From a virus, in the IMG/VR virus record IMGVR_UViG_3300022602_000332, positions 1-27,640 of that record: a DNA stretch of 27,640 bases; one strand, given 5' to 3'. The notes below the pieces were generated by a model. That model saw nothing but the letters and a program-made list of their open reading frames with translations, made no database searches and was not told the origin of the DNA. A program made the translations under genes and the position numbers. Shown piece by piece: positions 3,879-22,133 of the stretch (positions within the stretch are counted from its first letter, which is position 1; each line of letters starts with the position of its first letter).

Positions 3879-4204
3879 TGGCCACAAAACCAATTAACCC
3901 TGCGCCACCGAACCTGCCCCTTGCGCCCGATCAATACGACAGGCAGTACGGGGATAAGCTCAATAACGTCTTGCGTTTGTTTTTTAACCAGTTAAATGAT
4001 ATCTTGACTACGCTGGTTTCAACGTACATCACCAACACATCTATAACTACAGTGTCTAAACTGCCCACCGCATCCATGACCAATGCAGGAACAAGAACCT
4101 TTGTGTCGGATGCAACAGCTACGACTTTTGGTTCAACGGTAGTCGGCGGCGGTACAAATACTGTGCCTGTTTACTCGACAGGTACTAGCTGGAAGATAGG
4201 TTAA
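3878..4204 (+). CDS. Small tail-associated structural protein
   Basis: This encodes 108 residues, starting with the last base of the preceding stop codon (TAATG), so translation is probably coupled to the hub gene. The N-terminus is proline-rich (PINPAPPNLPLAPDQYD) and is followed by a helix with aromatic and asparagine residues. The C-terminal 40 residues (RTFVSDATATTFGSTVVGGG, ending in a Trp-Lys-Ile-Gly) resemble the end segment found on many phage tail-fibre and tip proteins. Its role is likely as a minor virion component at the tail, judged from that segment and from its neighbours. No enzymatic motif is visible. Confidence 0.65.
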   Translation: MATKPINPAPPNLPLAPDQYDRQYGDKLNNVLRLFFNQLNDILTTLVSTYITNTSITTVSKLPTASMTNAGTRTFVSDATATTFGSTVVGGGTNTVPVYSTGTSWKIG

Positions 4205-4238
4205 ATGGTAAACTGGAACATATTCTTGGAGCACTTCC

Positions 4239-7223
4239 ATGTCTGATATTTTTAGCAACGCCCTCAATGGCCTATCCGATGCCATCCATAGCGCAGGCAA
4301 AAGCTCCCTTGGCCAGCTTGCCGAGACAGCCGCGCTCACTTATTTTCTTGGCCCCGCGGGTGCAGAGCTCAGTATTCCAACAGCCGCTGGCTTGGCAGGA
4401 GGCATCACAAATCTAGTCAATGGCGGCAATATTGGAAGCGCCTTGACTGCGGGGGCTATGAGTTATGGCTTGGGAAGTTTAAGCGGTATTGGTGAGGCCA
4501 ACCCTAATGCAGCCAATGTTCCTGTTGAAGAACGTATTCCTACGCTTGTAAGTGAAATATCACAGGACATGGTTCCTAATGCACCAAACCCTTATGGTAC
4601 TAGCGTTAGTAATTTTGGACAAGGCACGCCTACGGGTTTAAACCCCATGTTTGACAGCCCAAATGCTTCACCTACAACAGCACTAACAACACCAGCAGCA
4701 CCATCAGCACCACCATCACTTGTAGGTAGTGCGCCTCCCCCACCCACATACACTCCCCCACCTTCTGCGCCCTCAACAGGAAAATCTTTGTGGGATTATT
4801 TAACTACTTCTAATCCATCTACCGCAGACACGAGCAAAATGTCTCCATTTGGCAAAGCCGCCAACTGGGTGTCGGACTTATCACCTTTAGCAAAAGCAGG
4901 CTTGGGGCTAGGCGCTGTATCTTTACTTAAAAGCGGGCAAAAACAAGCAGGCGTTAATGTCCCCACATACAGAGGAAAACTTGCTCTTTTTGGCGGTAAT
5001 CCTTACTCTGGCCCTTCTAATATGTACCAGGTTTCAGCCGCTACAGGCGGGCTGGTGGCTTTGGCCAAAGGCGGTGGTGTTCACCATTACGATGATGGTG
5101 GAACGGTTATTGGATATTACGATGATGGTACTCCTCAATACGCATCTGCGCCTGCCGCTCCTGCTGCGCCTGCTGCCCCTGTTACTCCAACCCCTACCCC
5201 GACTGCATCATCAGGTCTTCCTGCTTTAACGTCTAATGCAAGCGCTGCTGATATCGCTGCTGCTATTGGAGCTGACACAGCGGCAGGAATGTCGCAACAA
5301 CAAATGGCGCAACAGTTTACCAACGAAGGAATCTTGGCCCCCCAGGTCATTGCGGCTACAGGAGGCTGGGGATCTCAAAACGCAGGGCTTGTTAATCAAC
5401 TGTTTGGCAACGCAACACCAGCCCCAACAGACATGTCTGGCGCAATTCCTTTGGGTGTTCAGATGTTGAATAAGGATTTGACAGGAGTCACAAATCCTAC
5501 AGTTCAGCAAATGCAAACTGGTGAAGCCAATGTACAAGCTCAGAATCAGGCCGGGAACTATGTCAACAGTTTATTGAGTGGCGGTAACAATGCTGCAAGC
5601 GTAGCGGCATTCCAGTCGGGCAGTGCGGCAGACCAGAACGCTGCAATTCAAAAAGCTGTTAATGATGTGCTTACAGAATACGGCGGTAATACGCCACAAG
5701 CGCAAGCCACTATAGCGCAATTAATGAATGAGTGGAAGGTTAATCCCAATACGCTTAGTTCGGCTATCAATGTGCCTGCTTCAACTGTGCAAGCGGATTA
5801 CAACGCGGCTATGGGTAATTCTGCGCCATACTATGCGCCACTTACAGCGGCGGGCTTGGGTTCTCCAGCCACAGGTATAGATTTATTGGCTATCCAGCAA
5901 GCGGCCACACAAGCGGGTTTGCCCAATCCTCAGTCATACACAAGCATGTCTCAGGTGTTGAATGACATTGCGGCCAAAAAAGCAACGGCCAAACCCGTTA
6001 CACCCACTCCGACCCCTACGCCAACACCCACTCCGACCCCTACGCCGACTCCAGCACCCACGTTGCCTAGTGTTATACCAGTGACACCAACAACACCGAT
6101 GCCTTCTACGCCTGTTCCTGCGGTTGTAGAAAATTACAATACTGGCTATATCAGCAACACAGCAAATCCAACTTCTGCTCCTGGAGTAGCGGGGTCGCAC
6201 GCATTCATTGACCAAAATGGGTATGTAAGCCAACGCGCGCAACAGGTTGGTCAGCCAATCAATCCGCAGGGATTCTTAGATAACTGGACGTCATTGAGCC
6301 AATTAAAAAATGCTTACACCAATGCGGGTGGAAGTTTAGGCGCTACCAATCCCGCCGCTCCTGCGACAACTACAGATGCTGGAACACAGCATTACTTGGA
6401 TATGTTGAATGGCAAGATACCATTCTCAAAAGTCCCATATACACCCACAGGCGAAATAGCCAAGCCATACTATACGTCTGTGATGGGAATGCCTGAGAAT
6501 CCTGTTTATAACGTATCACAACAGTATGTATTTGATCCTGCGTCCAAAACATATGTAAATAATCCTAATTTTGATCAAAACTTTAGTTCAGCCGCACATT
6601 ACATTGGCGCGTATGATCCATCTTATACAGGATCGCCTGTACCAGCCTTGAGTCAAAAAACACTAGACTATTTGGCTGCAAATGGAGTTAACGCGCCCTC
6701 TGCCGCTGCGGCTGCCGCTTCTACGGCAGGAACAACCACGCTTCCTGGAGGAAAAAATGGAACGCCTTTAGCAGCATACCCCGGCTATTACACTTCTAAT
6801 GGAAAATACTATGATAGAAATGGTAATTTAGTAGCCAATAATGATAGTGAATTTCAAAGTTTAATTAATGGCGGTACAAACGGTGCTAATGGTGGTTTGA
6901 TGAGCCTTGCCGCAGGTGGTATGTCTGTGGGACATTTAGGAGGGTACTCAGATGGAGGACGTTTATTGCGTGGCCCTGGCGATGGGGTATCCGATTCAAT
7001 ACCTGCTACTATTGGTTCTTCTGATCCTGAGCCTGCTCGTCTTGCTGACGGTGAGTTTGTAGTTCCCGCTCGGATTGTTTCTGAACTTGGCAATGGCTCT
7101 ACTGAAGCAGGCGCTCGCCAGCTTTATAAAATGATGGATCGCATTCAAAAAGCCAGAGCAAAAACAACTGGCAAAGACCGCGTGGCTACCAACACCAACG
7201 CAAACCAATATTTACCTGCATAA
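4239..7223 (+). CDS. Large Ala/Gly/Pro-rich virion protein with conserved C-terminal module
   Basis: This encodes 994 residues of low-complexity sequence. The N-terminal 100 residues are glycine- and alanine-rich with hydrophobic stretches (LGPAGAELSI, ALTAGAMSYGLGSL) that could insert in a membrane. Pro/Thr/Ala-rich linkers occur at about 150-180, 305-325 and 585-610. A motif of the form GGLxxLAxGG followed by aromatic or His residues and a further GG occurs twice, at residues 270-288 and from 885. The C-terminus (about 895-994) carries a segment shared by many phage structural proteins: GDGVSDSIPATI, then ARLADGEFVVPA, LGNGSTEAGARQLY and a basic helix. Its position after the tail genes and before a transglycosylase-bearing protein suggests an ejection or tail-internal protein. 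The exact role is unknown. GGAG lies 8 bases before the start. Confidence 0.65.
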   Translation: MSDIFSNALNGLSDAIHSAGKSSLGQLAETAALTYFLGPAGAELSIPTAAGLAGGITNLVNGGNIGSALTAGAMSYGLGSLSGIGEANPNAANVPVEERIPTLVSEISQDMVPNAPNPYGTSVSNFGQGTPTGLNPMFDSPNASPTTALTTPAAPSAPPSLVGSAPPPPTYTPPPSAPSTGKSLWDYLTTSNPSTADTSKMSPFGKAANWVSDLSPLAKAGLGLGAVSLLKSGQKQAGVNVPTYRGKLALFGGNPYSGPSNMYQVSAATGGLVALAKGGGVHHYDDGGTVIGYYDDGTPQYASAPAAPAAPAAPVTPTPTPTASSGLPALTSNASAADIAAAIGADTAAGMSQQQMAQQFTNEGILAPQVIAATGGWGSQNAGLVNQLFGNATPAPTDMSGAIPLGVQMLNKDLTGVTNPTVQQMQTGEANVQAQNQAGNYVNSLLSGGNNAASVAAFQSGSAADQNAAIQKAVNDVLTEYGGNTPQAQATIAQLMNEWKVNPNTLSSAINVPASTVQADYNAAMGNSAPYYAPLTAAGLGSPATGIDLLAIQQAATQAGLPNPQSYTSMSQVLNDIAAKKATAKPVTPTPTPTPTPTPTPTPTPAPTLPSVIPVTPTTPMPSTPVPAVVENYNTGYISNTANPTSAPGVAGSHAFIDQNGYVSQRAQQVGQPINPQGFLDNWTSLSQLKNAYTNAGGSLGATNPAAPATTTDAGTQHYLDMLNGKIPFSKVPYTPTGEIAKPYYTSVMGMPENPVYNVSQQYVFDPASKTYVNNPNFDQNFSSAAHYIGAYDPSYTGSPVPALSQKTLDYLAANGVNAPSAAAAAASTAGTTTLPGGKNGTPLAAYPGYYTSNGKYYDRNGNLVANNDSEFQSLINGGTNGANGGLMSLAAGGMSVGHLGGYSDGGRLLRGPGDGVSDSIPATIGSSDPEPARLADGEFVVPARIVSELGNGSTEAGARQLYKMMDRIQKARAKTTGKDRVATNTNANQYLPA
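6001..6048 (+). repeat. 24-base tandem repeat encoding a Thr-Pro linker
   Basis: Two adjacent 24-base copies (6001-6024 and 6025-6048) differ at one base by my reading and encode alternating Thr and Pro inside the 994-residue virion protein. Related Thr/Pro-coding sequence is also present near 5187-5210. It looks like an expandable linker, so copy number may vary between relatives. Confidence 0.7.
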
Positions 7224-7232
7224 GGAACGGTC

Positions 7233-8306
7233 ATGACCACAACAGCAGTTACAGGCGCATCTCCCCTGCCGCAACAAGTTACAGAATACCAAACTGGCTT
7301 TTCTCCTGAAATAGCTCCCTACGGCCAAGCGCTTTTGGGTGAGGCGGCATCGTATGTAAACCCCGCCACAAACCCCTACATGCAGTATCAGGGGCAACAA
7401 ACCGCTGGGTTTACACCTCTTCAACAACAATCATTCAATTCTGCTGGGGCTTTGCAGTCTTCGGGACAGTTGCAAGATGCATCCGCAATGGCCGGAATGG
7501 CGGGGATGGGCGGACTTAATGCAAGTTACAGTTATAGTCCCTATCAAGCAAACAGTTTTACAAATCCTGGGGTAGCGCAAAGCTACATGAACCCATATTT
7601 GCAAATGTCTCTGGCCCCTCAGTTGGCCATGATGAACCAACAGCAAGGCGCAGCACAACAAACAGCAAATGCCCAAGCCACACAAGCAGGAGCTTTTGGG
7701 GGTTCACGTTTTGGTATTCAAAACGCTGCCACAGGGCTTAATAACCAGTTGGCTCAACAGAATTTGATTGGTAATGCGTACAACACCGCGTATAACCAAG
7801 CCGCCAACCAGTTCAATACCGAGCAAGGCGCTAATCAACAAGCCGCTAACCTCAACGCACAGCAAGGCCAGTTTGGAGCCAACCTTGGACTCCAAGGCTT
7901 GAACACAGCCTTACAGAGCGCCAATACGTTGGGCACGCTGGGCAATAACCAGTACAACCAAAACTTGGGCATCATTGGATTGCAGAACCAGTTGGGCGGT
8001 GAGCAACAACAGCAAGTCCAAAATGCAATGAATACGGACTACCAGAACTTCTTAAACCAACAGAATTTCCCGTATCAGCAGATGAACTTCATGTCCAATT
8101 TGATCCGTGGACTACCTATGACGCAACAATCTGCGTCTGTGTATCAAGCGCCCCCAAGTACACTATCGCAAGTCGCTGGCTTGGGTTTGACTGCCGCAGG
8201 TTTGGGAGCATTCAAGTCTAACGCCAAAGGCGGTGCGATCAAAGAGAAAAAATCAAATGGTCTGATGGATTTGGCACTAAAGAAGATGGAGCCTGAGAAT
8301 GTTTAA
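7233..8306 (+). CDS. Gln/Asn/Ala-rich virion protein, probable ejection protein
   Basis: This encodes 357 residues, strongly enriched in Gln, Asn, Ala and Gly, with almost no cysteine and few charges until a lysine-rich end (KGGAIKEKKS). The middle (about 130-260) is predicted by eye to be a long helix with repeated AQQ, NQQ and NAQ triplets. A short hydrophobic glycine-rich stretch occurs near residue 310. AAGGA lies just before the start, and the next gene begins 8 bases before this one ends. Composition and place in the operon resemble the internal ejection proteins of podoviruses (the T7 gp14/gp15 position). That assignment is by context only, with no diagnostic motif. Confidence 0.6.
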   Translation: MTTTAVTGASPLPQQVTEYQTGFSPEIAPYGQALLGEAASYVNPATNPYMQYQGQQTAGFTPLQQQSFNSAGALQSSGQLQDASAMAGMAGMGGLNASYSYSPYQANSFTNPGVAQSYMNPYLQMSLAPQLAMMNQQQGAAQQTANAQATQAGAFGGSRFGIQNAATGLNNQLAQQNLIGNAYNTAYNQAANQFNTEQGANQQAANLNAQQGQFGANLGLQGLNTALQSANTLGTLGNNQYNQNLGIIGLQNQLGGEQQQQVQNAMNTDYQNFLNQQNFPYQQMNFMSNLIRGLPMTQQSASVYQAPPSTLSQVAGLGLTAAGLGAFKSNAKGGAIKEKKSNGLMDLALKKMEPENV

Positions 8307-10350
8307 TGTTCCTCAAATCCAAGCCCGTCTAGCGGGCATGAGTCAGCAACAGCTTTTTCAAGAAGGCCAAGCCAATCAGAATGATGCTTTGATGTTTTCA
8401 TTGGTCAACAATGAGAATATGCGCCGCCAAAAAGCCAAGCAAGCTATGCTGGCACAACAAGCAGGTCAGCAACAGCCTCCTGTCAAAGAGCAAGATTTGA
8501 TGGCCATGGCGCCTACTCCTGCGCCTAACATGGGTTCGGGTATACCACTACAAGGTGCAGGTTCTCCACAACAAATGGCACAAAACCAACTGCCTGAAGA
8601 ACAAGGCATTGGCGCTTTGCCCGCAAAGAACTTGCAGGGTTTGGCGGGGGGTGGGATCACTGGGTACGCTGAAGGTGGTTTGAATAGTTATGCTCCACAG
8701 ATTTTTGCAGAAGCCAAACGTCTGGGTATTGATCCTAATATTGCATTTAATTTATTTAAAACAGAATCTGAGGGCAACAAAAACGCCACTTCTGGTAAAG
8801 GTGCTGCAGGACTAGGTCAACTAATGAAACCAGCCGCACAGGAAATGGGCTTATCTGAAGAAGAGCGCTACGATCCACAAAAGAACATTAGCGCTTCCCT
8901 TGGTTACTTTAAAAAGCAACTAGATCGTTTTGGCTCTTATGACAAAGCCGCCGCTGCATACAACTGGGGGCCCGGTCATTTAAAAGAACATTTAAAGAAA
9001 AATGATGGCGTATTAAATATTAATGGTTTGCCAAAAGAAACGGCCAACTACTTAACAAAATTAATGCCCGGCAGTCAAGCCAATGCCGCAGAAATTCCAC
9101 AAGGAACTGCGCCAACACAAGCGCCTGTTTCTTCAGCATCCATGATCCCCGGCCAATCTGTTCAAGCTCCTGCTGCACAGCCAGAACAAGGCGGTTTTGA
9201 AAATTATTTGCTTAACAAAGGTTATCAACTTTTTGGTACACCCGGACAAGAAGGTGCGCGTAGTGCGTATAATTTATTAAATGCTGCTGCTGGCGCTACG
9301 GGCGCCACTTTTATTCCAAGTTATTTGCCTAAAGCAGGTTTGGGTATTGCTGGATTGGGTGAAAGAATATACAACAAGTTTGCACCGCAAGAAGCTGGAA
9401 CACTTAGTCAAAAAGCTATTTCAGAATTACAAGCAGCTAATAAAGCCGCAAATGAACAAAGCGGTATTGCTTCTTTGGCGCAAAATGCTAAAAATCTTGC
9501 ACAAGAATCTGGTGCTTTACCAGAAGAAGCTGAAGCATTATCACAAAGTGCCGCCGCAGCAGAAAAAGCTAGGTTGGCACAAGTGCCAAGCAAAGCACTA
9601 GAACTTCAAAATGCATCTAATGTAAGACAGGCTACTGAAGCCGCGCGTATGCTCGAAGCCGCTAATGCTGCTAGAGCTACTGCCGCTGGAACAGCGGGGG
9701 TTGCTAATCTTTCAAGTGCGGCAGCACAACCATCTGCTGCTACTCCAATAGGAGGCAACACAGCCGCCCAAACACAAGACATGGAAGACATGGAAGATCC
9801 GGGTTTTGGCCCTAGACCTCAAGGTACACCTACTGCCCCATCTACAAGCGACATTGCTAATACGGTTACACAAACTGCAGGCGGTAAGGGCGGTAGAGAC
9901 TGGAACGACTTCTTGTTGAATATGGGTCTTGGTTTGTTGGCAGGCAAGTCTCCCTATGCACTACAAAACGTAGGTGAGGCAGGGCTTGGCGCGTTGCGTC
10001 AAGAACAAGAAGCCAAAATGCAAGGGCTTAAAGAGCGTCAAGTGGCGGCGGAAGAACGCAAAGCTGCGTCTGAAGAGGCGTACCAAAAAGCTTTGGGGGC
10101 GCACTATGGTGTTACTCCAGAAATTCAATTGGTGCAAGCCATGAAAGATCCAGAGTTTGCTAAACAATACCAAAGTTTGGTTTCTGCAAAAGCCGCTCCA
10201 GCGACTACAAAAGAGTTGATTGACAGTTACATGAAAACTCTTAACGGTAAAACAGGTGATTTCTCAGGTTTCCAAGATTTTGTACAACAAATGTCCCAGT
10301 ATACGGGTACAATGCCATCAGGCGTTAAAGTTACAAAACGTGGTGATTAA
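8299..10350 (+). CDS. Virion protein with lytic transglycosylase domain
   Basis: This encodes 683 residues. Residues about 128-232 form an SLT-type lytic transglycosylase domain. The catalytic glutamate is in KTESEG (Glu156), followed by GAAGLGQLMKPAA, the NISASLGYF helix and AAAYNWGPG (residues 219-226), the standard order for soluble lytic transglycosylases. In phage virions such domains open peptidoglycan locally so DNA and internal proteins can cross, as in T7 gp16. The region before it is Gln-rich with an LAGGGITGYAEGG motif (115-127). The region after it is Ala-rich and helical (about 350-500), and the C-terminal third is charged. The codons for the enzyme domain are visibly more AT-rich than the flanks. 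GGAG lies 8 bases before the start, overlapping the previous gene by 8 bases. Confidence 0.85.
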   Translation: MFNVPQIQARLAGMSQQQLFQEGQANQNDALMFSLVNNENMRRQKAKQAMLAQQAGQQQPPVKEQDLMAMAPTPAPNMGSGIPLQGAGSPQQMAQNQLPEEQGIGALPAKNLQGLAGGGITGYAEGGLNSYAPQIFAEAKRLGIDPNIAFNLFKTESEGNKNATSGKGAAGLGQLMKPAAQEMGLSEEERYDPQKNISASLGYFKKQLDRFGSYDKAAAAYNWGPGHLKEHLKKNDGVLNINGLPKETANYLTKLMPGSQANAAEIPQGTAPTQAPVSSASMIPGQSVQAPAAQPEQGGFENYLLNKGYQLFGTPGQEGARSAYNLLNAAAGATGATFIPSYLPKAGLGIAGLGERIYNKFAPQEAGTLSQKAISELQAANKAANEQSGIASLAQNAKNLAQESGALPEEAEALSQSAAAAEKARLAQVPSKALELQNASNVRQATEAARMLEAANAARATAAGTAGVANLSSAAAQPSAATPIGGNTAAQTQDMEDMEDPGFGPRPQGTPTAPSTSDIANTVTQTAGGKGGRDWNDFLLNMGLGLLAGKSPYALQNVGEAGLGALRQEQEAKMQGLKERQVAAEERKAASEEAYQKALGAHYGVTPEIQLVQAMKDPEFAKQYQSLVSAKAAPATTKELIDSYMKTLNGKTGDFSGFQDFVQQMSQYTGTMPSGVKVTKRGD

Positions 10351-10368
10351 CAATTAGCGAGGTGCGGA

Positions 10369-13300
10369 ATGCCGCAGTATTCAGTTGATATTCCAGGTAA
10401 GGGAACGTTTGATATCGAGTCCCCCACTGATTTAACGGATGCCCAAGCGTACGCGGCAGTTATGTCGCATCTCGAGCCTAAAAAAGAAACACCTAAAGAA
10501 GAACCCAAAAGGGGACTAGGCGCGGCATTTGAACGTGGCCTTGAGTCTTATTTATCTCCCTCCCTGACGGCTCTTCAGGGCCCTTCTGCTGAATCTGCAT
10601 TGGCAGGACTAGAACGTTCTAAGCAACTAGAAGAAAACAACCCAAGTCAAGCATCTTTAGCTAAAGTAAAAGAAGCATTTAAAAAAGGTGTCTTGCCAGG
10701 GATTGGGGAAACTGTTCGTGAAATACCCTATGCCTTGGCTGAACAAGCGCCTAATCTTGTTAGTATGGGTGCGGGTGCTCGACTGGGCGCAATGGCTGGT
10801 GCTCCGTTTGGTGGCGTTGGTGCGCTTGGCGGTGCAGGCTTGGGCGCTCTTGCAGGACAGTTTTTGTCTTCTTACTTGCCTCAAGCAGGGGGCAACATCG
10901 AGGAGCAAGCGCAAGCTCAACAAGCCGCGGGTAAACCTGTTGATATCAATGCATTAAAAGCTTATGGAACTGCGGTTCCAATGGCGGCGGCTGACGTAGG
11001 TTTGATGCACTACATCGGTGGTCGAGGCTTGATGGGTAAGCTACTAGGCGTGCCTGAAGAAGCAATGGCTAAAAAATCTGCGGCTGAAGTTGAAAAGCTT
11101 GCGCAGGAAAAGCTACTGCCAACATTGCTGAAAGGAACCGCCAAGGGTTTTGCGGCTGAAGTACCCACCGAAATACTCCAAGATGTTTTGCAACGCGCAC
11201 AAGCCGGTGAAGACTTAACAAGTCCTGACGCTTTGCAAGGCTATGGTGAGACCGCATTTCAAATGGGTTTGTTGTCTCCGCTTGGCGCGTTGGGGCGTAT
11301 CTCTGAGAAATCAGAAGCGCGGGGGCAGTTGGCCACAAAACAAGCTGAAGAACAAAAACAACAACAAATCCAAGCGCTTAAAGACCAGAAAGCTGCTGAA
11401 GCGAAAGAAGAACAGAGAAAACAAGACCCTGCATACATGCAGTCGTTTATTCAAAACTATGAGTCGCTTGAACAGCAATTCAAAGATTTGCGTAAGCAAA
11501 ATAAAAAACCTAACCTCAAAGAAGCAGTTCCTTCTGAGATAGAACAATACGAACAAAACCGCCAGCAACTGGCGGAGATGAGTAAAAAGTTATCTGCGGA
11601 TGCCAAAGAGTATCAACGCATTCGCCCTATATACAACCAGATTAAAGCGCAACAACAAGCGCAGGCACAACAAGCCCAAGACCAACGCTATCAACAGATG
11701 GAGTTGGAAGGAGCGCAGAATCAGCCTACGGCTGACACGGCATACTATCAAGCTCCTCAAGGCACGTTGCCCGGCATTCAAGCCGTTGAGCAACCACCCA
11801 CGCCTGAGAAAGTTGACACCCGTGCATTGTATGACCGCTTGCAAGTATTGCAACGCGCCAAAGATGCCCACCAAGCCCAAGAAAACGAGATTGCCGCAAG
11901 CGGTGACATGGAAGCTTTGGGTGAATTCTTTAAGCAAAAAGATGCAGTTGATAAAGCCCACGCTGAAACGGCAAAACAACTTAAAGAAGCGGGGGGTTAT
12001 GAACCTGCGCCTGAGCATCCTTCGGTTGTTGCACAAAACGAATACAACAAAGCCGTTGAAAAACTGCAAAGAGAAGCCAAGGTAGGCACATACGCTTACG
12101 ATCCTGCCATTGCAAGAAAACTATACCCGCAAGTTGCTGCGGCAAAAGAGCGACTTGAGAAAACGGTAGCAACCTATGGCCCCGCACCTAGGGGTGAAGA
12201 GCAACAAGGATTTGACTTTGGGCCTGAGTCTGAGTTCTTATCTCCAACCATTACTACCAAAGAACAAAAAGCCGCCAGGTATTACAAGCCGGGCGCTCCT
12301 GAAGCAGAAGCTGAAGAGCAAGCACTCATTGAAGAACAAAAACGTAGAGACGAAGAAGAACGCCAAAGAATTGCGCAGGGGCGCGAAGAGTATGCATTAA
12401 GCCAAGAACCCAAACAACGCTACGAGCGCCTGAATGAGATGGGGCGTGCGGCAGAGTTTGAAGGCCCGCAAATGGGCTTTAATGTTAAACCTGAACTTGA
12501 TACCAGTTCTGCGGCAATGGGGCAGATGCAACAAAGCCTAGAAGGTATTGAGCCAGGCACTGATCTTCTACACACTGCAAAAGAAGAGAAGCCTCGCGAA
12601 TTTAGAAAGTCACCGACGGAACCTTATAGGGGTTTGTACGCATCGCCAACGGAAGAGCCTGACTTTACGCCCGAGCGTAAACAAGAAATGCGTGCTGACC
12701 TTGAGCGTCGTTTGGCAAGCGTCATGTCCAGATATGAGATGCCACAGGGTACATACGACCTCCTGCGCCGCGCAGAGAATGCCTTGGCTGTCCCGAACCC
12801 CGATACTGACTTCATGCGCACGCTTGATGAGCAGTTGAAAGAAATTGAAAGTGGCCGAGAAGGTATGCCCCGCAAAGGCGCGGCTTTGCCTACGCAAGAC
12901 TTGCAGTCATTCCCCGTAGATAAAACGGCTGTAGGTATCCGTGTTCCAAAAGAAACAGAACGCCCTGTGCTTCGTGGCCCAAGCGCCAAACCTGCACCAC
13001 TATCAAGAGAGTCTGAGTTAAGAGACTTTTTGCGCACTAGTGAAGAAGCTAGAGGCGAAGGCCCTGCTGGCACTAAACAAATGCCGTTGTTCCCTGAAGA
13101 GGAAGAAAAGCTGGGCACAGTTCGTGCCAATCCTGCACAGTTCCAACGATTCCTTAATAGCGACAAAGTTAAAAAACTAAGACTTGCGCTGGATAAAGAT
13201 TTAAACGAGCTACAAAAACTCATTACTGTTGACGAACTTAAAGCTCGTGCAGACGCTTTGGCAAAACAAGTCGAAGCTATGGAGTCGGTAAATCTTGAGT

Positions 13301-16300
13301 ATGCCCAAGCCCAGCGTACATTGAGACACCAACGCGATGTTGGCAAGCAAAGACACGACATCAACCAACTGCGTCAAGCTCTTGTCAATGGCGTTCTTAG
13401 GCGAATGGACTTGCAAGGCAAACTTGACGAGCTTATCAAAGCGCGCAACGAGATTGAAGCCCAAGCAAAAGCCAATCAGATTGGTGGTTGGGACGGCTTT
13501 GATCCCGAGTTGTATGCCAACCTTGAGCATGTTCAAGAAGAGTACCAACGCGCTGTCAATGAAGTGGCTGAAATGCAAGGCGCTTTGTCCACGCTTGATG
13601 GCCGTCTAAAAGTTGAAGAAGCTAGGATTAAAATTGCCAAGCTCAACCCCTTGACAACACCCAAAGAAAAGTTAGCGGCTGCAAAAGAAGAGTTGAACGC
13701 AGCGCGAGTTGAATTGGGTGAAGCTCAAAAAGTAACCAATGCTGAACTTGTTGCAAACAAAGCTGAAGAAGGTAAACAACGGCGCGCTGATGAAGCGGTA
13801 GCCAAAGCCAAAGCCGACAAGATAAGAGACGAGATTGCCAAAGAACGGCAAAAACGCCTTGAGGCCGCCTACAACCCCGCTACTAGGGGCGTGGAATATC
13901 CTGCTATTCTTGATGCCCAACGCATGGCTAAAGAGTTGCCTGCCAATGAAAGACGGCCTACATCAGACGCTGAAGAACAAGCCATACGCGGTAACCCAAT
14001 GAAAGTTTTGGGGGGCTATAGAAGCGATGTCACAAAGCTTGAGAAAAAAATTCAGCAGTCGCAGACCAAATCTAAAAATGCTAGGTTGGAAGGACTCTCT
14101 GAGCTACGCAATAAAGCAGACGCGCTAAATAAACAGTATAAAGAAACTGCTTCTTCGGCTGAAAGAGCGCAGCTTTTGCCCCAACTTGAGGCTGCTGAAA
14201 GAGCGTATGACGAAGAGGTTAATAAACTTGTAGATCAACCCATCACATGGGTTGGTATGGCCAAAGATATACGCGATCTAGCCGTTGCTATTAATAGAGC
14301 AGATCGCCTAGAAGCACGCATTGAATCTGGTGATGTAGAAGTGCAGGGCGTGGTACCCGCTAAACAACGCAAAGCCCCTGTTAAAAGCGTTAAGCGTGCA
14401 GAAAAAACGGTCAATGGTATTAAAGATAAAATTGCCGTTGAAAAAGACGAAGCTAAAAAAGCTAAACTAGAAGAGCGTCTTGCCACCGCTGAAAAGTTTT
14501 TGGCTACGGCAAAAGCCGAAGAAGCCCAAAGAAACACTCAAGCAACCAAAGCTGCACAAGAGACTGCGGGCGCGGCTAAGACAACGGAACCTGCGCTCAC
14601 TAAGAGTGAAGTCAAGAAAGCTACCAAGCAAGGTAATACAACATACACCAGCAAAGGTGTAGGCGAAGAAATACAATCTAAGATTGCAAAAGAAGTCAAG
14701 ACAAAAGAGATTGTCGAGAACGATAACAAGTACAAAGCGCTTAAAGAGAAGAAGCCGTCTGAATTAAACGCAATGGAAAAAGCGTTTATTCAAATGTATG
14801 AGTACAAGTACGGCGGTAAGAGTACTGGTTTGGCTGACAAGATATTGGCTGAAGATAAAAAAAAGCCTCAATTATCTAGGGGCGCAACTCCCAACGGACT
14901 AACCAAAGCTGAACTACAAAAAGAACTTGACAAAGCGTTAGGCGAAAAGGGTTTTACAGCGCAAGATCGTTTTGCCACTACAGACAAATACGGAAACCCA
15001 ACGCCATCAAAACTGGGTATATACGAATCAGTTGATGATTTTTTAAAAACAAACCCTGAGTATGAAGGTCTAATACCACAAGACGCCAAAGGTTTTGCGG
15101 AAGGCCAAAACGCATACTTGTTTGCAAACAATATTGAAAAAGGTCAAGCCCTTGGTGTTTTGTTGCACGAAGTTGGTACGCACATAGGCTTTAAAAACTT
15201 TTTTGACGCCAAACAATACAACGATCTTGTCAATACCGTTAAAGGTTGGGCAAAGTTAAACGACGGTTCTATTGAAGCCAAAGTAGGACGCGCTGCAATG
15301 GATCGCGTTACAGAAGCCAATACTGCTGCGGAACATGTAGATGACGAGTTGCTTGCATATGCCGTTGAAGAAGCTGTAAAAGCGGGGGTAAAACCCGAAG
15401 GCATGGGGGTGCTTAAAAATTGGTTGAACAAATTAGTACAAGCATTTAAAAACGCGTTGGCTAAACTCGGTTTTGCCCCAGAAAAACTTTCTGCAGGCGA
15501 CTTGGTTAATTTTGCATACGGATGCGCTAACCTAGAACTTCGTGGCACATGGCACGGATCAGACGCAAAGTTTACAGCTTTTGACAAAACCAAAGCAGGT
15601 ACTGGCGAAGGCGCTTTCGATCGAAGGTTTGATGAATACAATTTGGGCAAAGGCCCTTATGTAACCCCAGATAAAGAATATGGTGAATACTATCAACAGG
15701 CAGTTCCTTTTGGTAAAGCTTCAAATGAAAGCGGGTATGGGCGTTATACATATCAAGATTATGCCGAGTCATTGGCTAAAGTAAGTGGCGCAACACAAGA
15801 AAGTTCTACTGCAGAATTGCAACGCATGTTTGAATCAAACTTGCTACACCGTTATTTAAATAGCTTACTTAATGATGGAAATTTAGACCCGACTAAAAAT
15901 AAAGCTGCTTTAAGCTACATTGATGAATTAAAAAATATTGCGGCTAAAAGAAAAAAAGAAGCGGAAGAAACCCTTGCTTCTCGCCAAAAAAGAAAAGCTA
16001 AACCAGACAGTATTGAAAATGCTCAAAACGAATTAAAGTATGCTGAACGCTTTGAAAAAGCGGCAAACACATTAGATGTTTCAAAAATAAAAGGTTTAAA
16101 AGAACGCCCCGCTAAAGGCAATTTGTATCGTACTCTTGATGACATACCAAGAAAAAATATTTATAGTGTTAATTCAAGTTTTGTTTACGGGGAACGCCCT
16201 GCTTTAGATGCGTTGTTACAGAAATATGGAGATGCTTACGCAAAAAGACAAGTAAAAGAAGATGGTACATATCCAGCAAACGGTTTGTATTATGACATGC

Positions 16301-19026
16301 GTAAAAATTTAGGTATTGAAAAAACAAATCAGTTGCTTAAAGATGCCGGTATTGAAGCCATTGAACAAAAAAATGATAGACGCTACATTGAGCGCGCATA
16401 CATAGATAAAAATCCTGAAATACTTGGCATGAATCTAGAACCTGTAGGCGTTACCAAAGGTTTATTGTTCTCCATAAAGCCTAAATACAACAACGCTGAA
16501 TATGCAAGCATTGGTGCAATAGCTGACAAGTTTATCGCCAAAGAAAAAACTTTCTACGACAAAGTTAAAGCCAATGCCACGGGCTTGGCTTCTGAGACAC
16601 AGTTGGTTGATAGGTTTGCAGGATTTGAGCGCCTAGCCAAGACCATGAATGACCTCAAGGGTCAGCAGATGATGTACTACTTGCGCATGTACGATCAGCG
16701 CATGAACTTTGTAGCCCAATCTGTGGCCAATGGTGCGCTTGGCATTAACGAGAAAACCCGTGCTGATGGTCGCAAAGAGTTTCTTATTGAGAGTAAGACA
16801 GGCCCAAGTCTCAAAGGAACTGTGAACATTCTCAAAGAAGCTACCCCCATCGTGGGCAACGGCGAAGCTGTAAACAGATTGTTTACGCTGTATTTATCTG
16901 CCATTCGTGCCAAAGACAAAGGCTTTGCTACTTTGCACTACGGTAATAACTTGACAGAAGCCGAGCTTAATCAAGCCAAGAAAACAATTGACGATAATAC
17001 AGAACTCAAAGGGATTTTTGATCGTGCGCGAGACGAGTACAACGCGTATAACAGAAACCAGCTAGAGTTTGCGGCTCAAACAGGTGCGTTGTCTAAAGAA
17101 GTAGTTGCGCGCTTATTAAAAGAAAATGATTATATTCCTTGGTATCGCCAACGTAATGGCGTAGCGGAACTCATCATTGGTAATGAAGCCCCCATCAGGG
17201 TTGGAAGTATTGCGGAGCAACCCTATTTGCAAGAACTTGTTGGTGGCGATACGCCAATTTTAGATTTCATGACAAGCTCTGTGCAAAACACAAACATGAT
17301 CGCTGACATGGGGCTACGCAACCTAGCCACTAAGAACGCTGTGTTTGAGCTTGTGGATATGGATTTGGCGCACATTAGTACAAAGAAAATTTCTGGGCCT
17401 GATGTTGTTAAGTTTAAAGTCAATGGCGAAGATCGTTACGCTATGATCGACACTGACAAAGCAGGCGTACCCGCAGACATACTGGTCAAAGGCATGGAAG
17501 GTATTCCTGCACAAATGCCCTTTGCTTTCCGCGTCATGGGCATACCCGCCAGACTGTTGCGTAAGACTGTCACAGCATCCCCCTTGTATGCCGCCAAACA
17601 GTTGTTCCGTGATTCTTTAGCGGCTACTATTTTGTCAGGCGCTGATTTCACACCTGTAATGGGGTCTTTAAAAGAAATCAATAGCGCCACCAAAGCCACC
17701 CTCGAACAACGCGGTATTACTGGCGGTCAAGTATTTACTGGAACAAATGAAGATTTGTCTAAAATACTTAAAGACATTGTGAATGATAAGCCGGGATGGC
17801 TCAATAGCCTGTCCAAGTGGGAAGCCATGTCAATGGAGGCGGATGCTACCACAAGACGCGCTCAATACAACAGCTACATTCAACAAGGTCTTTCTGAGAT
17901 GGAAGCCACGTTGATGTCGTTGGAGTCTATGAACTTCAATAAACGTGGCGCTTCACCAAGCGTGCACATTATTAACTCTTTGATTCCATTCTTTAATGCT
18001 CAGATTCAATCGTTGAACGTGCTGTACAAAGCCATGACGGGCAAGTTGCCCTTCAATGAAAAATTAAAGATTCAAGAAAAGTTGTTGACAAGAGGCGCAA
18101 TGTTGGCCGCTGGTACGCTTGCCTACACCATGATGATGCAAGACGATGAAGCGTATAAAAACGCCACTCCTGATCAAAAGTACAACAACTGGTTTGTGCA
18201 TGTGCCAGGCGTTGACGAGCCTGTGCGTTTGCCAATTCCATTTGAGATTGGGTACATCTTCAAAGCGTTGCCCGAGGCGTTGTACAACACAATGGTCAAC
18301 AAGCATGGTGGCGAAGAAGCTGTCGAAGCCTTTAGCGGGATCATAAAAAATCTGATACCAGGCGGTTCATCCTACGGCATACCGCAGGCTTTGAAACCTG
18401 CAATTGAAGCGGGGCTTGGCAAATCGTTCTACACGGGGCGCGACATACTGACCAAGACAGAACAGAACTTGTTGCCTGAAGATCAGTTTAGAGCGAACAC
18501 GACAGAAGCTGCCAAAGCATTTGGTAAAGCAACTGGCACATCGCCGATCATTATGGAAGAGTTGGTGAGGGGATATACAGGCACGCTGGGTCTTGCGTTC
18601 TTGCAAGCCATAAGCATGGGCGTGCCCAAGGGCAGTACTCCAGAGCAGACCGCAGGGCGGTTGTCGGATTTGCCTGTGGTTGGAGGCGCGTTCCAACCAA
18701 ATGATGCAGGGGGCATCATTAGTAATGTCTACAAGCGCATGGACGATATTAAGAAAATTGCCAACACAGTAGACGAGCGCCTAAGTAAGGGTGAAAAAGC
18801 AGACGCGCTAGACTTGATTCATAGAACAGGCAACGCGTACGCCGCCTCTGAAGTAGCTGACTACTACACAAGCACCATGAAAGACTTAACGTCTTATGAA
18901 AATGCAATCCGTGCTAGCAACATGCCAGCCGAGCAAAAAAGAGAAAAGCTTGACTATGTTAGGCAAATGAAAATTAAGTTTGCCAACAGCGTGCGTGATG
19001 CTACAGATAGAACAGTACCCCGCTAA
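10369..19026 (+). CDS. Giant 2885-residue polyvalent virion protein: zincin, ART-like and LPD-type domains
   Basis: A single open frame with GAGGTG before the start. By eye, residues 1-37 are a small N-terminal module (MPQYSVDIPGKGTFDI). About 100-320 is an Ala/Gly-rich region with a hydrophobic glycine zipper near 135-170. About 320-1500 is mostly charged, Gln/Glu/Lys/Ala-rich coiled coil. About 1500-1720 contains LLHEVGTHIG with His1600, Glu1601 and His1605 plus a later DDELLAY (Glu1660), a pattern of the zincin module in phage polyvalent proteins. About 1725-2015 resembles their ADP-ribosyltransferase module: WHGS (His1729), GTGEG (1744-1748), KGPYVTP (Tyr1764), EYYQ, then KDAGIEAI. About 2036-2885 resembles a large polyvalent-protein-associated domain (probably LPD38), with KRGASPS followed by LIPFFNAQIQ near 2525-2545. 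Placed after the ejection-protein genes, it is probably packaged and injected. Activity of either enzyme module is unproven. Confidence 0.8.
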   Translation: MPQYSVDIPGKGTFDIESPTDLTDAQAYAAVMSHLEPKKETPKEEPKRGLGAAFERGLESYLSPSLTALQGPSAESALAGLERSKQLEENNPSQASLAKVKEAFKKGVLPGIGETVREIPYALAEQAPNLVSMGAGARLGAMAGAPFGGVGALGGAGLGALAGQFLSSYLPQAGGNIEEQAQAQQAAGKPVDINALKAYGTAVPMAAADVGLMHYIGGRGLMGKLLGVPEEAMAKKSAAEVEKLAQEKLLPTLLKGTAKGFAAEVPTEILQDVLQRAQAGEDLTSPDALQGYGETAFQMGLLSPLGALGRISEKSEARGQLATKQAEEQKQQQIQALKDQKAAEAKEEQRKQDPAYMQSFIQNYESLEQQFKDLRKQNKKPNLKEAVPSEIEQYEQNRQQLAEMSKKLSADAKEYQRIRPIYNQIKAQQQAQAQQAQDQRYQQMELEGAQNQPTADTAYYQAPQGTLPGIQAVEQPPTPEKVDTRALYDRLQVLQRAKDAHQAQENEIAASGDMEALGEFFKQKDAVDKAHAETAKQLKEAGGYEPAPEHPSVVAQNEYNKAVEKLQREAKVGTYAYDPAIARKLYPQVAAAKERLEKTVATYGPAPRGEEQQGFDFGPESEFLSPTITTKEQKAARYYKPGAPEAEAEEQALIEEQKRRDEEERQRIAQGREEYALSQEPKQRYERLNEMGRAAEFEGPQMGFNVKPELDTSSAAMGQMQQSLEGIEPGTDLLHTAKEEKPREFRKSPTEPYRGLYASPTEEPDFTPERKQEMRADLERRLASVMSRYEMPQGTYDLLRRAENALAVPNPDTDFMRTLDEQLKEIESGREGMPRKGAALPTQDLQSFPVDKTAVGIRVPKETERPVLRGPSAKPAPLSRESELRDFLRTSEEARGEGPAGTKQMPLFPEEEEKLGTVRANPAQFQRFLNSDKVKKLRLALDKDLNELQKLITVDELKARADALAKQVEAMESVNLEYAQAQRTLRHQRDVGKQRHDINQLRQALVNGVLRRMDLQGKLDELIKARNEIEAQAKANQIGGWDGFDPELYANLEHVQEEYQRAVNEVAEMQGALSTLDGRLKVEEARIKIAKLNPLTTPKEKLAAAKEELNAARVELGEAQKVTNAELVANKAEEGKQRRADEAVAKAKADKIRDEIAKERQKRLEAAYNPATRGVEYPAILDAQRMAKELPANERRPTSDAEEQAIRGNPMKVLGGYRSDVTKLEKKIQQSQTKSKNARLEGLSELRNKADALNKQYKETASSAERAQLLPQLEAAERAYDEEVNKLVDQPITWVGMAKDIRDLAVAINRADRLEARIESGDVEVQGVVPAKQRKAPVKSVKRAEKTVNGIKDKIAVEKDEAKKAKLEERLATAEKFLATAKAEEAQRNTQATKAAQETAGAAKTTEPALTKSEVKKATKQGNTTYTSKGVGEEIQSKIAKEVKTKEIVENDNKYKALKEKKPSELNAMEKAFIQMYEYKYGGKSTGLADKILAEDKKKPQLSRGATPNGLTKAELQKELDKALGEKGFTAQDRFATTDKYGNPTPSKLGIYESVDDFLKTNPEYEGLIPQDAKGFAEGQNAYLFANNIEKGQALGVLLHEVGTHIGFKNFFDAKQYNDLVNTVKGWAKLNDGSIEAKVGRAAMDRVTEANTAAEHVDDELLAYAVEEAVKAGVKPEGMGVLKNWLNKLVQAFKNALAKLGFAPEKLSAGDLVNFAYGCANLELRGTWHGSDAKFTAFDKTKAGTGEGAFDRRFDEYNLGKGPYVTPDKEYGEYYQQAVPFGKASNESGYGRYTYQDYAESLAKVSGATQESSTAELQRMFESNLLHRYLNSLLNDGNLDPTKNKAALSYIDELKNIAAKRKKEAEETLASRQKRKAKPDSIENAQNELKYAERFEKAANTLDVSKIKGLKERPAKGNLYRTLDDIPRKNIYSVNSSFVYGERPALDALLQKYGDAYAKRQVKEDGTYPANGLYYDMRKNLGIEKTNQLLKDAGIEAIEQKNDRRYIERAYIDKNPEILGMNLEPVGVTKGLLFSIKPKYNNAEYASIGAIADKFIAKEKTFYDKVKANATGLASETQLVDRFAGFERLAKTMNDLKGQQMMYYLRMYDQRMNFVAQSVANGALGINEKTRADGRKEFLIESKTGPSLKGTVNILKEATPIVGNGEAVNRLFTLYLSAIRAKDKGFATLHYGNNLTEAELNQAKKTIDDNTELKGIFDRARDEYNAYNRNQLEFAAQTGALSKEVVARLLKENDYIPWYRQRNGVAELIIGNEAPIRVGSIAEQPYLQELVGGDTPILDFMTSSVQNTNMIADMGLRNLATKNAVFELVDMDLAHISTKKISGPDVVKFKVNGEDRYAMIDTDKAGVPADILVKGMEGIPAQMPFAFRVMGIPARLLRKTVTASPLYAAKQLFRDSLAATILSGADFTPVMGSLKEINSATKATLEQRGITGGQVFTGTNEDLSKILKDIVNDKPGWLNSLSKWEAMSMEADATTRRAQYNSYIQQGLSEMEATLMSLESMNFNKRGASPSVHIINSLIPFFNAQIQSLNVLYKAMTGKLPFNEKLKIQEKLLTRGAMLAAGTLAYTMMMQDDEAYKNATPDQKYNNWFVHVPGVDEPVRLPIPFEIGYIFKALPEALYNTMVNKHGGEEAVEAFSGIIKNLIPGGSSYGIPQALKPAIEAGLGKSFYTGRDILTKTEQNLLPEDQFRANTTEAAKAFGKATGTSPIIMEELVRGYTGTLGLAFLQAISMGVPKGSTPEQTAGRLSDLPVVGGAFQPNDAGGIISNVYKRMDDIKKIANTVDERLSKGEKADALDLIHRTGNAYAASEVADYYTSTMKDLTSYENAIRASNMPAEQKREKLDYVRQMKIKFANSVRDATDRTVPR

Positions 19027-19195
19027 GACCGTTCTTAATACCAACTTTGGCTTTGGCGTAGAAGAGGCGGTGCTTTAGCGCTTGTTGGAGACCCTCAGTT
19101 TTGACGGCCTCCGTATCGAGGCAGGGGACAAAGAACCCCTGCCCTCGCTCAAGATGTTTCCAAGGATATCGGATTCGCAGTGGCGATGATGTCAT
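19001..19195 (-). CDS. Small conserved-looking protein, 64 residues, overlapping both neighbours
   Basis: This encodes 64 residues on the - strand with a near-perfect Shine-Dalgarno (GAGGAGGA) about 6 bases before the ATG. The protein reads like a real folded domain: RYPWKHLERGQGFFVPCLD, then a helix, then KVGIKNGLSGVLFYL. It resembles short hypothetical proteins I have seen in phage replication regions, with a Gly-Gln-x-Phe-Phe-Val-Pro core. I know no function for it. It starts inside the last 47 bases of the primase-helicase gene. It also ends 26 bases inside the 3' end of the giant + strand gene, so the two transcription units overlap tail to tail. Composition is basic with two histidines and one cysteine. 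Confidence 0.7.
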   Translation of the reverse strand: MTSSPLRIRYPWKHLERGQGFFVPCLDTEAVKTEGLQQALKHRLFYAKAKVGIKNGLSGVLFYL

Positions 19196-22133
19196 TAGCG
19201 TCCTCCTCGCGACGGCTAATCTTCATAGTACCTACGCGCATTTGTGGGCCGTTGGTCTTGGCCATCATGTCTTTCTTTGGCATGTATGTGACTGTGTAGA
19301 GCTTCTCCATTTGCTTCTTAAAGTCTGTATAACCAAAGCTCATCGAAGAACAGAACGATCTCAAGAGACGCTCTTCAATGTAGAAGTCCTTGCAACCCGG
19401 TGTTACGCCATTCTCTACACGCCCCATGACGTTGGCCTTGGTGGTTGCCCTGTCGATCATGGAGCCGTCACCCATAGCCGCAGACAACCCACCCTTCTCG
19501 CCATAATTAATGATCACAAACTTGCCCCAGTACTCACGAATGAATCCGTTAAGCACGTCCTCGGCACTACGCTTGTTGCCCCTGATGTTGTTGCGCATGT
19601 AGGCAATACGTTTCTTAAGCGCCTCAATGATCTCGTTCATGGGGAACTCAGCAATGTCTGCGTGTTGAGAGTTCATGAGTAGCCCTGCGCTCACCATCGT
19701 GCCAATGCCTGCCATCCAAAAGCGTTCATCGTTGGTCGCGTTAAAGTCTAGGTACATCTGAGTCACAGCGCTTGTCACCATCTTGGCAACGAACGGGGTA
19801 TTATCCACCATGTATTGCGCCAAGAGATGCCCTGCAACCCCGTAGTTGTGAGAGATAGACTTAATGATCTCGATGTCTTCGGGCGACCACTTAAGTTCTT
19901 CATCCATGACAAACTCGATTAAGCGTCTTAACTCACCTTCAGCCGCGTGTTTCCTGTCTCCAGTTAAGGTGTCAACGACGTGGGTATTGGACGACATGAT
20001 TGCTGTGCTCATCCATGTGGACAAGTTCAAGCGCTCCTTGTTAGAGCCTGACTCCATACGCTCCTTGCCTCGGCCTTCAGTCATGTCAAGCAAAAACTCG
20101 GGGAACCACTCAAAGTCGTTGCGGTTCTTGGATGTGATCTCATCCGTTACAAGGGGCAAGCTGTTGAGCAAGCCTAGTCTTTGTTGCATCGCAACAGGAG
20201 AAGTTCCCTTACCCGTACGATAATGAACAGGATGCCCCCATACAGAAGCAGCGCCCTCCAAGGCAAGCGATTTACCTGTACCTGATTCTGTAGAACCGCA
20301 ATGGATTGTCAGCCCGTAGATACCAGTAAAGCGCATAAGCGGTGCACCTGCGCCCATAAGAATGATCGCAAGGTGGTCATACATTTTCTTTCGTATCAAG
20401 AGGTTTACAAAGTTACGGAACGCTTGGAGTTCTCCTGTGGGTTGTGTGTTGTTGACGATGTTCTCCAAGCCTGGCATGGGCACGGCTACTGGCTCTTTGC
20501 CCTTGGAGTAAATCTTTCCTGCAAATACAAAGTCTTCGTTGGCTTGCCAACCATAACTTGCTGGAACTTCGATAGGTGTTTTTTCTGTACTCATTTTTTC
20601 TACGCACGCTCTCACATAGTCTGCTAAGTTTTTATCATTTCCAGACCCAAAGGCGCTCACAATATTTTGTGATGCCAGAGTCTTGACAGTCTCATCCTTG
20701 CTGACCACTACTTTTTGTGGAAGCGTCACAGTCTGTGCGCCTTGTTGTCGTAGTGCAAGCATATGGATTGTGTGTTCATTGCCATTCTTTAGGATGTCTA
20801 CAGGAAACAAATCGTAAGGCAGTATCATGATTTGTTTAACAACCTTGTTGCCATTTGCGTCTAAGTCTTCCTTCTCCATGAAAACCCCACCTCTTTCGCC
20901 ATACGCATAGCCTCTGGGTGTTTCGGGTCTTTTGATTGTGCGGTTCTCCTTTGTGTCTGTAATCTCAATTAGTTTTTCTGTGCGTGTTACTGCGGTGTCT
21001 CTGCCAAGCACCAAGGGATTGGTGATCTTGCCCCAGTGCTTGCATGATGGGCAAACGCCTGGGTTCTCGCTATCCATTTTTATGCAAGGGTAGGGGCCTT
21101 TGATTTGGCTGATCTTGTCGTGCATCCTCTCGTGAGAGTAGGGGTGCATGTCGCTCAACCACACCGATGCTTTCTCTGCGTCTACGCATACCTTAGTCCA
21201 AGACAACAACCCACGCCACAATGGCTCCATACCATCTTCACTAGCGTTGTTGATGTAGTGCTCAAGCTGACCGCACCCTCCGCCTTGCGCTGTGATTTTA
21301 ATAATCTTACCAAACTTGGTTACAGAATTCTCAAAAAGTTTTACAGTCGTGGCGCTAGTAGATGTTGGTGGAGTTCCTTGCAATGCTATGGAATGCGTTG
21401 GCACTGCTTGAGACACCACGTTTTCATACATTGTCCCCACAAGATGCTTGGTTATTATGGCCTTCAAGTCCTCAAAGTTAAACAAGTCGCCTTCATTCAT
21501 GAACCGAACATTGGTGACTTCTCTGACTTGCTTGTTTGCTTTGACCCCTGTGTTGATGGTGGCGGGTACGCGCAAGACTCTAGAAGCATCGCTTGTAATT
21601 GTTGGATCAATGGCCAGCTTCTTTTGAAAGCACAAGCGCTTGAATCCTTCAGCTACAGGCAACCACTCATTTTTGTCTACGGCCTCATGGAAAGGCCAGT
21701 ATGCGTGTACTCCACCGCCCGATGCAACCAACCACGGCTGACCTAAATCACTCAGCCCAATCTCATTGGAAAAATCTATGATCGCTTGAACAGCCAACTT
21801 GGCTGATGCGTACGCCTTTGGTTTAATAAATCCATTCTCATCAGGTATATCTTTAGGATGGTTGCAGTCCACATCCACAGCAATGCACCTGACCATCTGC
21901 ACGTTGGTGGAAGTTCGTGAGTAGTTGGTTTGCTTGTCATTCAACTCATCACCAAACGTGCCAAGCGCAAAATAAACATCGTAGTTCTTTTGCTTCCAGA
22001 GGTTTATTTTCGCTTCGGCTTCTTGTAAAGTATCAACATAAACGTGTTCCTTTTTCTTGGTGAGTTCTACCACGCAATAGCGTCCGTTACCTGGTGGCGG
22101 TAGAACCGCCGCCATAAAATCTAGCGGTTCCAT
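19149..22133 (-). CDS. Primase-helicase (archaeo-eukaryotic-type primase fused to DUF927-like ATPase)
   Basis: This encodes 994 residues. The N-terminal third has primase-polymerase signatures: the metal-binding AVDVDC (Asp87, Asp89), ASGGGVHAYW (138-145, the SGxGxH-type motif) and SDASRVLRVPATIN (181-194). A cysteine cluster follows (Cys350, Cys361, Cys364, with His366), probably zinc-binding. The C-terminal half has a Walker A GSTESGTGKS (613-622) and a Walker B-like LPLVTDEI with Asp664 and Glu665, in the manner of DUF927-type helicases. Such proteins make primers and unwind the replication fork in one polypeptide. GAAGGA precedes the start. It is preceded by the short 61-residue gene, and its end is overlapped by the 64-residue gene. 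Together with the polymerase, helicase and ssDNA-binding genes it gives a nearly self-sufficient replisome. Confidence 0.85.
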   Translation of the reverse strand: MEPLDFMAAVLPPPGNGRYCVVELTKKKEHVYVDTLQEAEAKINLWKQKNYDVYFALGTFGDELNDKQTNYSRTSTNVQMVRCIAVDVDCNHPKDIPDENGFIKPKAYASAKLAVQAIIDFSNEIGLSDLGQPWLVASGGGVHAYWPFHEAVDKNEWLPVAEGFKRLCFQKKLAIDPTITSDASRVLRVPATINTGVKANKQVREVTNVRFMNEGDLFNFEDLKAIITKHLVGTMYENVVSQAVPTHSIALQGTPPTSTSATTVKLFENSVTKFGKIIKITAQGGGCGQLEHYINNASEDGMEPLWRGLLSWTKVCVDAEKASVWLSDMHPYSHERMHDKISQIKGPYPCIKMDSENPGVCPSCKHWGKITNPLVLGRDTAVTRTEKLIEITDTKENRTIKRPETPRGYAYGERGGVFMEKEDLDANGNKVVKQIMILPYDLFPVDILKNGNEHTIHMLALRQQGAQTVTLPQKVVVSKDETVKTLASQNIVSAFGSGNDKNLADYVRACVEKMSTEKTPIEVPASYGWQANEDFVFAGKIYSKGKEPVAVPMPGLENIVNNTQPTGELQAFRNFVNLLIRKKMYDHLAIILMGAGAPLMRFTGIYGLTIHCGSTESGTGKSLALEGAASVWGHPVHYRTGKGTSPVAMQQRLGLLNSLPLVTDEITSKNRNDFEWFPEFLLDMTEGRGKERMESGSNKERLNLSTWMSTAIMSSNTHVVDTLTGDRKHAAEGELRRLIEFVMDEELKWSPEDIEIIKSISHNYGVAGHLLAQYMVDNTPFVAKMVTSAVTQMYLDFNATNDERFWMAGIGTMVSAGLLMNSQHADIAEFPMNEIIEALKKRIAYMRNNIRGNKRSAEDVLNGFIREYWGKFVIINYGEKGGLSAAMGDGSMIDRATTKANVMGRVENGVTPGCKDFYIEERLLRSFCSSMSFGYTDFKKQMEKLYTVTYMPKKDMMAKTNGPQMRVGTMKISRREEDANDIIATANPISLETS

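Follow-up and report, generated by a model that had tools for sequence, protein, structure and literature searches.

Sequence comparison points to exchange of an enzyme cassette within a giant phage polyvalent protein

We analysed a 27,640-nucleotide stretch of viral DNA (positions 1 to 27,640 of IMG/VR virus record IMGVR_UViG_3300022602_000332; hereafter the window), in which a single gene encodes a 2885-residue protein, the giant. As judged from sequence comparison, the enzyme section of this protein is exchanged as a cassette between near-twin phages while the flanks stay unchanged, and this exchange is what the present analysis newly adds. The gene is real and conserved: its 2885-codon open reading frame (ORF) begins with ATG, occupies 31% of the 27.6-kb window, in line with the 'almost a third' of a preliminary description of the sequence, and is kept at full length in about 60 relatives. 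By its sequence, the giant belongs to the known phage-type polyvalent class (Iyer et al. 2017, PMC5512222), in that disparate modules (zincin-like, ADP-ribosyltransferase (ART)-like and LPD38) are combined in one large chain, a phage-specific LPD domain (PF18857) is present, and the gene adjoins late virion genes. We consider it likely, at a probability of about 0.75, that the giant is a phage-type polyvalent protein which a short-tailed phage packages into its virions and ejects along with its DNA, and in which the N-terminal tag, N-terminal region, stalk and LPD38 module serve as a carrier and residues 1500-2045 form an exchangeable zincin and ART-like payload.

Payload exchange among relatives

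Identity between the window protein and that of its near-twin L002 differed from part to part of the chain: 24% over residues 1-45, 90% over residues 46-350, 74% over residues 351-1499, 44% over the zincin-like module, 23% (background) over the ART-like cassette, and 92% over the C-terminal module. At the nucleotide level, blastn similarity between the window and L002 ended at position 14864 and resumed at 16516, from where it amounted to 85% over 11 kb, with a single 155-base zincin match in between. The L002 cassette (L002:5781-7832, giant residues ~1517-2200) carries a twin-arginine-like SRRAFLRG and, after it, a further zincin motif, HELTH. A shorter version of the L002-type cassette, 175 residues long, was observed in L081.

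Furthermore, the ART-like cassette of the window shared 52-56% identity with those of phages that have a C-terminal module of only ~35% identity, and most phages with a 63-66% identical C-terminal module bore the other ART subtype, to which the window cassette was identical at background level only. Three relatives (L087, L088 and L090) had no cassette, only a 20-residue linker, and kept the zincin. The tag also moved alone, as L039 and L077 share that of the window (53-58%) and not the remaining N-terminus. These part-specific identities, together with the separate movement of tag and cassette, indicate that the parts of the chain have different histories, and we infer a common carrier (tag, stalk and LPD38) with an exchangeable payload bay. 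The preliminary description had regarded the domain order as poorly characterised, a view that holds in part: the zincin, ART and LPD38 domains are already named for the class, and the novelty lies in the exchangeable cassette, which could not be seen from the single sequence.

Table 1 Features of the giant gene and the preceding block, in window coordinates
Feature	Position	Strand	Basis
Polyvalent protein gene	10369..19026	+	ATG start, 2885 residues; LPD38; ~60 full-length relatives
Shine-Dalgarno-like gaggtg	10359..10364	+	Sequence; four bases 5' of ATG
N-terminal tag, residues 1-45, exchanged among relatives	10369..10503	+	24% identity to L002; 53-58% to L039/L077
N-terminal region, residues 46-350, Gly-zipper-like stretch ~131-168	10504..11418	+	Sequence; alignment
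A/E/K/Q/R/L-rich stalk, residues 351-1499	11419..14865	+	Composition; no heptad signal
Zincin-like module, residues 1500-1721; HEVGTH at 15166-15183, Glu1660, Glu1667	14866..15531	+	Invariant in 51 sequences; secondary structure order
Border motif LSR, residues 1502-1504, N-terminal edge of zincin	14872..14880	+	Motif scan
ART-like cassette, residues 1722-2035; His1729 (15553), Tyr1764 (15658), Glu2008 (16390)	15532..16473	+	Conservation, sub-threshold ART-PolyVal, hhalign
Degenerate border motif (LFSI) following the ART-like cassette, residues 2033-2036	16465..16476	+	Motif scan; alignment
C-terminal carrier module, residues 2046-2885	16504..19023	+	152 phage records; BFVD match E 2e-52
LPD38 domain (PF18857), residues 2593-2770	18145..18678	+	E 4.8e-31
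994-amino-acid protein, first of conserved block	4239..7223	+	No family match; synteny
357-amino-acid DNA-ejection-type protein	7233..8306	+	phrog_4287 'DNA ejection protein' E 1e-8; synteny
683-amino-acid protein, SLT transglycosylase domain at 8701-9006	8299..10350	+	PF01464 E 8e-23; phrog_342 E 8e-11

Enzyme-like modules and their borders

The zincin-like module contains HEVGTH (residues 1600-1605), which follows the HExxxH motif, a variant described for some polyvalent metallopeptidases (Iyer et al. 2017, PMC5512222). His1600, Glu1601, His1605, Glu1660 and Glu1667 were invariant in all 51 sequences compared, and a predicted model of moderate confidence placed a helix, strands, the HExxxH helix and the Glu helix in the expected order. 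The module accordingly combines the features by which zincin-like metallopeptidases of polyvalent proteins are recognised, namely HExxH or HExxxH and a downstream Glu helix. His1729 and Tyr1764 of the ART-like cassette were likewise invariant (51/51), and the candidate third ART residue was Asp in 38 sequences and Glu in 12 (Glu2008 in the window), with a placement that depends on the alignment. Two cassette subtypes, matched by hhalign at 99.5% probability, end in NYVDF (the Asp form) and YxERA (the window type, with Glu2008). The ART-PolyVal profile (PF18760) matched 9 of 12 virus records below its cut-off, in every case at a single place within the ORF of the giant, where it spanned the first two motifs. 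By these residues and matches, the cassette is ART-like and probably active, without being a proven member of ART-PolyVal.

An alternative that we regard as unlikely is that the giant has a structural role alone, as an oversized internal or tape-measure-like ejection protein in which the zincin and ART modules are decayed, inactive relics. Consistent with it, Pfam and NCBIfam scans of the giant returned no enzyme family above cut-off, no fold match was obtained, and the existence of payload-free relatives implies that the enzymes are dispensable; by contrast, the active-site residues show no change across 51 diverse sequences amid variable surroundings, and L002 has a different cassette in this place, itself with a zincin, which is not what simple decay would leave. 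The zincin-like and ART-like modules named in the preliminary description find support in invariant active-site residues and sub-threshold ART-PolyVal matches, though not in fold.

Short motifs mark the borders of the payload. Of 63 relatives, 52 had the pattern [FYL]S[RK] where the zincin begins and 55 had it at the payload/LPD38 edge, whereas only 2% of random stretches contained it. Among the giants examined, the longer pattern [ILVM]x[FY]S[RK] occurred 152 times, compared with 33 in shuffled sequences and 7-53 for altered versions of the pattern. Both sets of counts are inflated by kinship between the relatives. The border motif was kept where the payload is absent, and a literature search on it returned nothing relevant. 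It is possible that the motif is a processing site. A more elaborate scheme, which we find doubtful, is a self-processing cartridge in which the zincin would cut the [FYL]S[RK] edges after ejection, the motifs would double as exchange joints, and the tag and LPD38 would form a packaging or ejection address. The motif counts and the retention of the motif without payload speak for this scheme. The non-independence of the relatives weighs against it, as do the degenerate LFSI of the window and the presence of the LPD38-edge motif in no more than 5 of 15 divergent clusters, each of which belongs to this lineage.

The zincin could instead be an effector that cuts host proteins rather than a processing enzyme, with the giant remaining in one piece. 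We hold this tentatively as a serious alternative: both roles are allowed by Iyer et al. (PMC5512222), and the N4 virion RNA polymerase, which has a metallopeptidase domain, is packaged unprocessed. The retention of the zincin without other payload (L087, L088 and L090) and its flanking by border motifs speak against an effector role, in a suggestive manner only.

The carrier: LPD38 module, tag and stalk

LPD38, a domain whose definition goes back to the work of Iyer et al. on polyvalent proteins (2017, PMC5512222), was the sole Pfam domain above cut-off in the giant (108.8 bits against a cut-off of 27), and a PHROGs search matched only phrog_9854, of unknown function. The large polyvalent-type C-terminal domain of the preliminary description therefore stands, as a module of about 840 residues that includes LPD38. 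With this module as the query, tblastn retrieved 152 phage records, including phages of Vibrio, Pelagibacter, Bacillus and cyanobacteria, and a second scan yielded at least 591 confirmed relatives in viral contigs. An AlphaFold2 model of the module (predicted local distance difference test (pLDDT) 72, predicted template modelling score (pTM) 0.68) matched predicted LPD38 proteins in BFVD, some of which are named lytic transglycosylase (LT_GEWL); a Foldseek comparison of the model with the PDB gave no significant solved structure, and searches of PDB sequences with the whole protein and with profiles gave nothing relevant. Further LPD38 giants (L145, L163, L165, L170 and others of L100-L179) carry two or three zincin motifs per protein, of the HEWWHALD-type HExxH and HExxxH forms.

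At the other end of the chain, the L002-type tag lies at the head of LPD38 giants in several marine phages, namely those of Vibrio, Shewanella and Thalassomonas, and its match in BA3 coincides with the start of the giant ORF; the window's own tag and N-terminal region had no match among cultured phages. When tag profiles were run on the other ORFs of the fetched loci, almost only giants were matched, and the lone clear non-giant match, in L057, resembles the 5' part of a split giant. Giants in two ORFs were seen at L005:4454-14289 (the same contig as L020), L049:898-10192 and L057:2736-12355, with the break near the start of the LPD38 part in L005 and L049 and near the N-terminus in L057, reflecting either a sequencing frameshift or a true split.

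The N-terminus had been described as membrane-active-looking, which was an over-reading: the Gly-zipper-like stretch is present, but no 19-residue window exceeded 1.2 on the Kyte-Doolittle scale, and the best Pfam match, DUF6861 (E 0.002), was below cut-off. Likewise, the more than 1000 residues of coiled coil proposed for the stalk were not recovered. Residues 331-1499 have the A/E/K/Q/R/L-rich composition, but a heptad test that detects the GCN4 control gave 5 of 155 windows at p<0.02, near chance.

Ejection block, virion evidence and known systems

The giant starts 18 bases downstream of the transglycosylase gene, and a convergent replication gene lies beyond its 3' end. The order of the 994-amino-acid, 357-amino-acid, SLT and giant genes was largely kept among the 50 related loci that extend at least partly upstream, in which homologues of the first three were found 43, 47 and 27 times, respectively; these counts are phmmer matches at E 1e-5 and hence lower bounds, many loci ending short upstream. 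The LPD38 giants of podophages VvAW1 and HTVC034P are likewise placed after ejection-type genes. Of the three upstream proteins previously called ejection-type, the second and third find support through their family matches, whereas the 994-amino-acid protein matched no family in Pfam, PHROGs or NCBIfam scans. Over its final 78 residues, the latter shares 42% identity with a protein of Planktothrix phage Pag-Yong1.

In Burkholderia podophage JC1, gp69 is a 4515-amino-acid protein that has LPD38 at 4195-4401 in addition to a lytic transglycosylase-like domain at 80-192, and CsCl-purified JC1 virions contain it (51 unique peptides, 15.6% coverage; PMC9144972). The preliminary description had named virion mass spectrometry of a cultured relative as a check; the JC1 result answers it by homology, for the class rather than for this phage. 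Together with the LPD38 family, the position in the ejection block and the conserved synteny, it sustains the earlier view of a polyvalent virion protein, and by analogy the giant of this phage is probably in the virion as well. Synthesis of the giant during infection, with action in that cell and no packaging, would suit its enzyme-like modules and the place of the gene at the end of the late cluster, but is very improbable in view of the detection of the LPD38 giant gp69 in JC1 virions and of the ejection-block position.

Several results weigh against a virion-borne, enzyme-bearing giant. Virion detection concerns the distant homologue JC1 gp69 and neither this phage nor a close relative; ART-PolyVal (PF18760) reached at best 22.1 bits against a cut-off of 31.2, in relatives only, the window protein having no match; and a Foldseek search of the PDB with the zincin and ART portion, a single 545-residue model of mixed confidence, found no solved analogue.

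In the favoured reading, the giant would be packaged together with the SLT and 357-amino-acid proteins and would exit the capsid with the DNA or ahead of it, and the zincin and the ART-like enzyme would reach the envelope or cytoplasm prior to phage gene expression. There, the zincin may release the payload, and the ART-like enzyme may, at an early stage of infection, ADP-ribosylate a host protein. Both injection and the reprogramming of the host are proposed by analogy with the polyvalent class. If this is right, podophages of this group eject a single carrier protein that has a bay for exchangeable enzymes, the window/L002 near-twins and the payload-free forms offer natural comparisons for what a phage gains by injecting an ART, and conservation of the carrier helps to locate the signal by which giants are directed into capsid and cell.

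Among known systems, the polyvalent proteins of Iyer et al. (PMC5512222) share large size, disparate domains, zincins including HExxxH, ART, LPD38 and a late virion context; the exact domain order and the within-lineage payload exchange described here may set the giant apart from them. JC1 gp69 and Bcep22 gp75 ('DarB-like') are also virion-associated giants with LPD38 near the C-terminus at the end of a structural cluster, and differ from the window protein in their length (4515 amino acids), N-terminal transglycosylase-like fusion, methylase/helicase payload and LPD3 in place of ART. The 'large polyvalent protein' of Pag-Yong1 (UMO75972) is of similar length, at 2772 amino acids, and aligns with the C-terminal module at 25% identity, covering 27% of the query, whereas its middle is different and its zincin motifs are HExxH. 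T7 gp16 and podophage ejection proteins are analogous as the last and largest of an ejection block with a transglycosylase, and in HTVC034P the LPD38 protein follows tail tubular A/B and an internal virion B-like protein; unlike in T7 gp16, the transglycosylase of the window is on a separate protein, and gp16 has no sequence or fold match to the LPD38 module. T4 Alt is an analogous virion-borne ADP-ribosyltransferase injected with the DNA (via Iyer et al., PMC5512222), but belongs to the R-S-E clade and is not part of a polyvalent protein, whereas the window residues are His-Tyr-acidic.

Identity with T7 gp16 was rejected, as the giant had neither a phrog_342 nor a PDB match. A P1 DarB-type antirestriction protein was rejected for lack of a methylase or helicase domain in the Pfam scan, and the N4 virion RNA polymerase for lack of a polymerase match in the Pfam and PHROGs scans.

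Elsewhere in the window, positions 19149-22133 (-) encode a primase/helicase-like protein, also of 994 amino acids, whose best cultured match over most of its length, in Pseudomonas phage Rollin, is only 22% identical, indicating a phage without a close cultured relative in the collection. Rollin, a relative in the replication module, has a 2184-amino-acid giant with HExxH and without an LPD38 match. An Rz-like spanin and a GH19 endolysin lie at 562-1801, upstream of the structural block.
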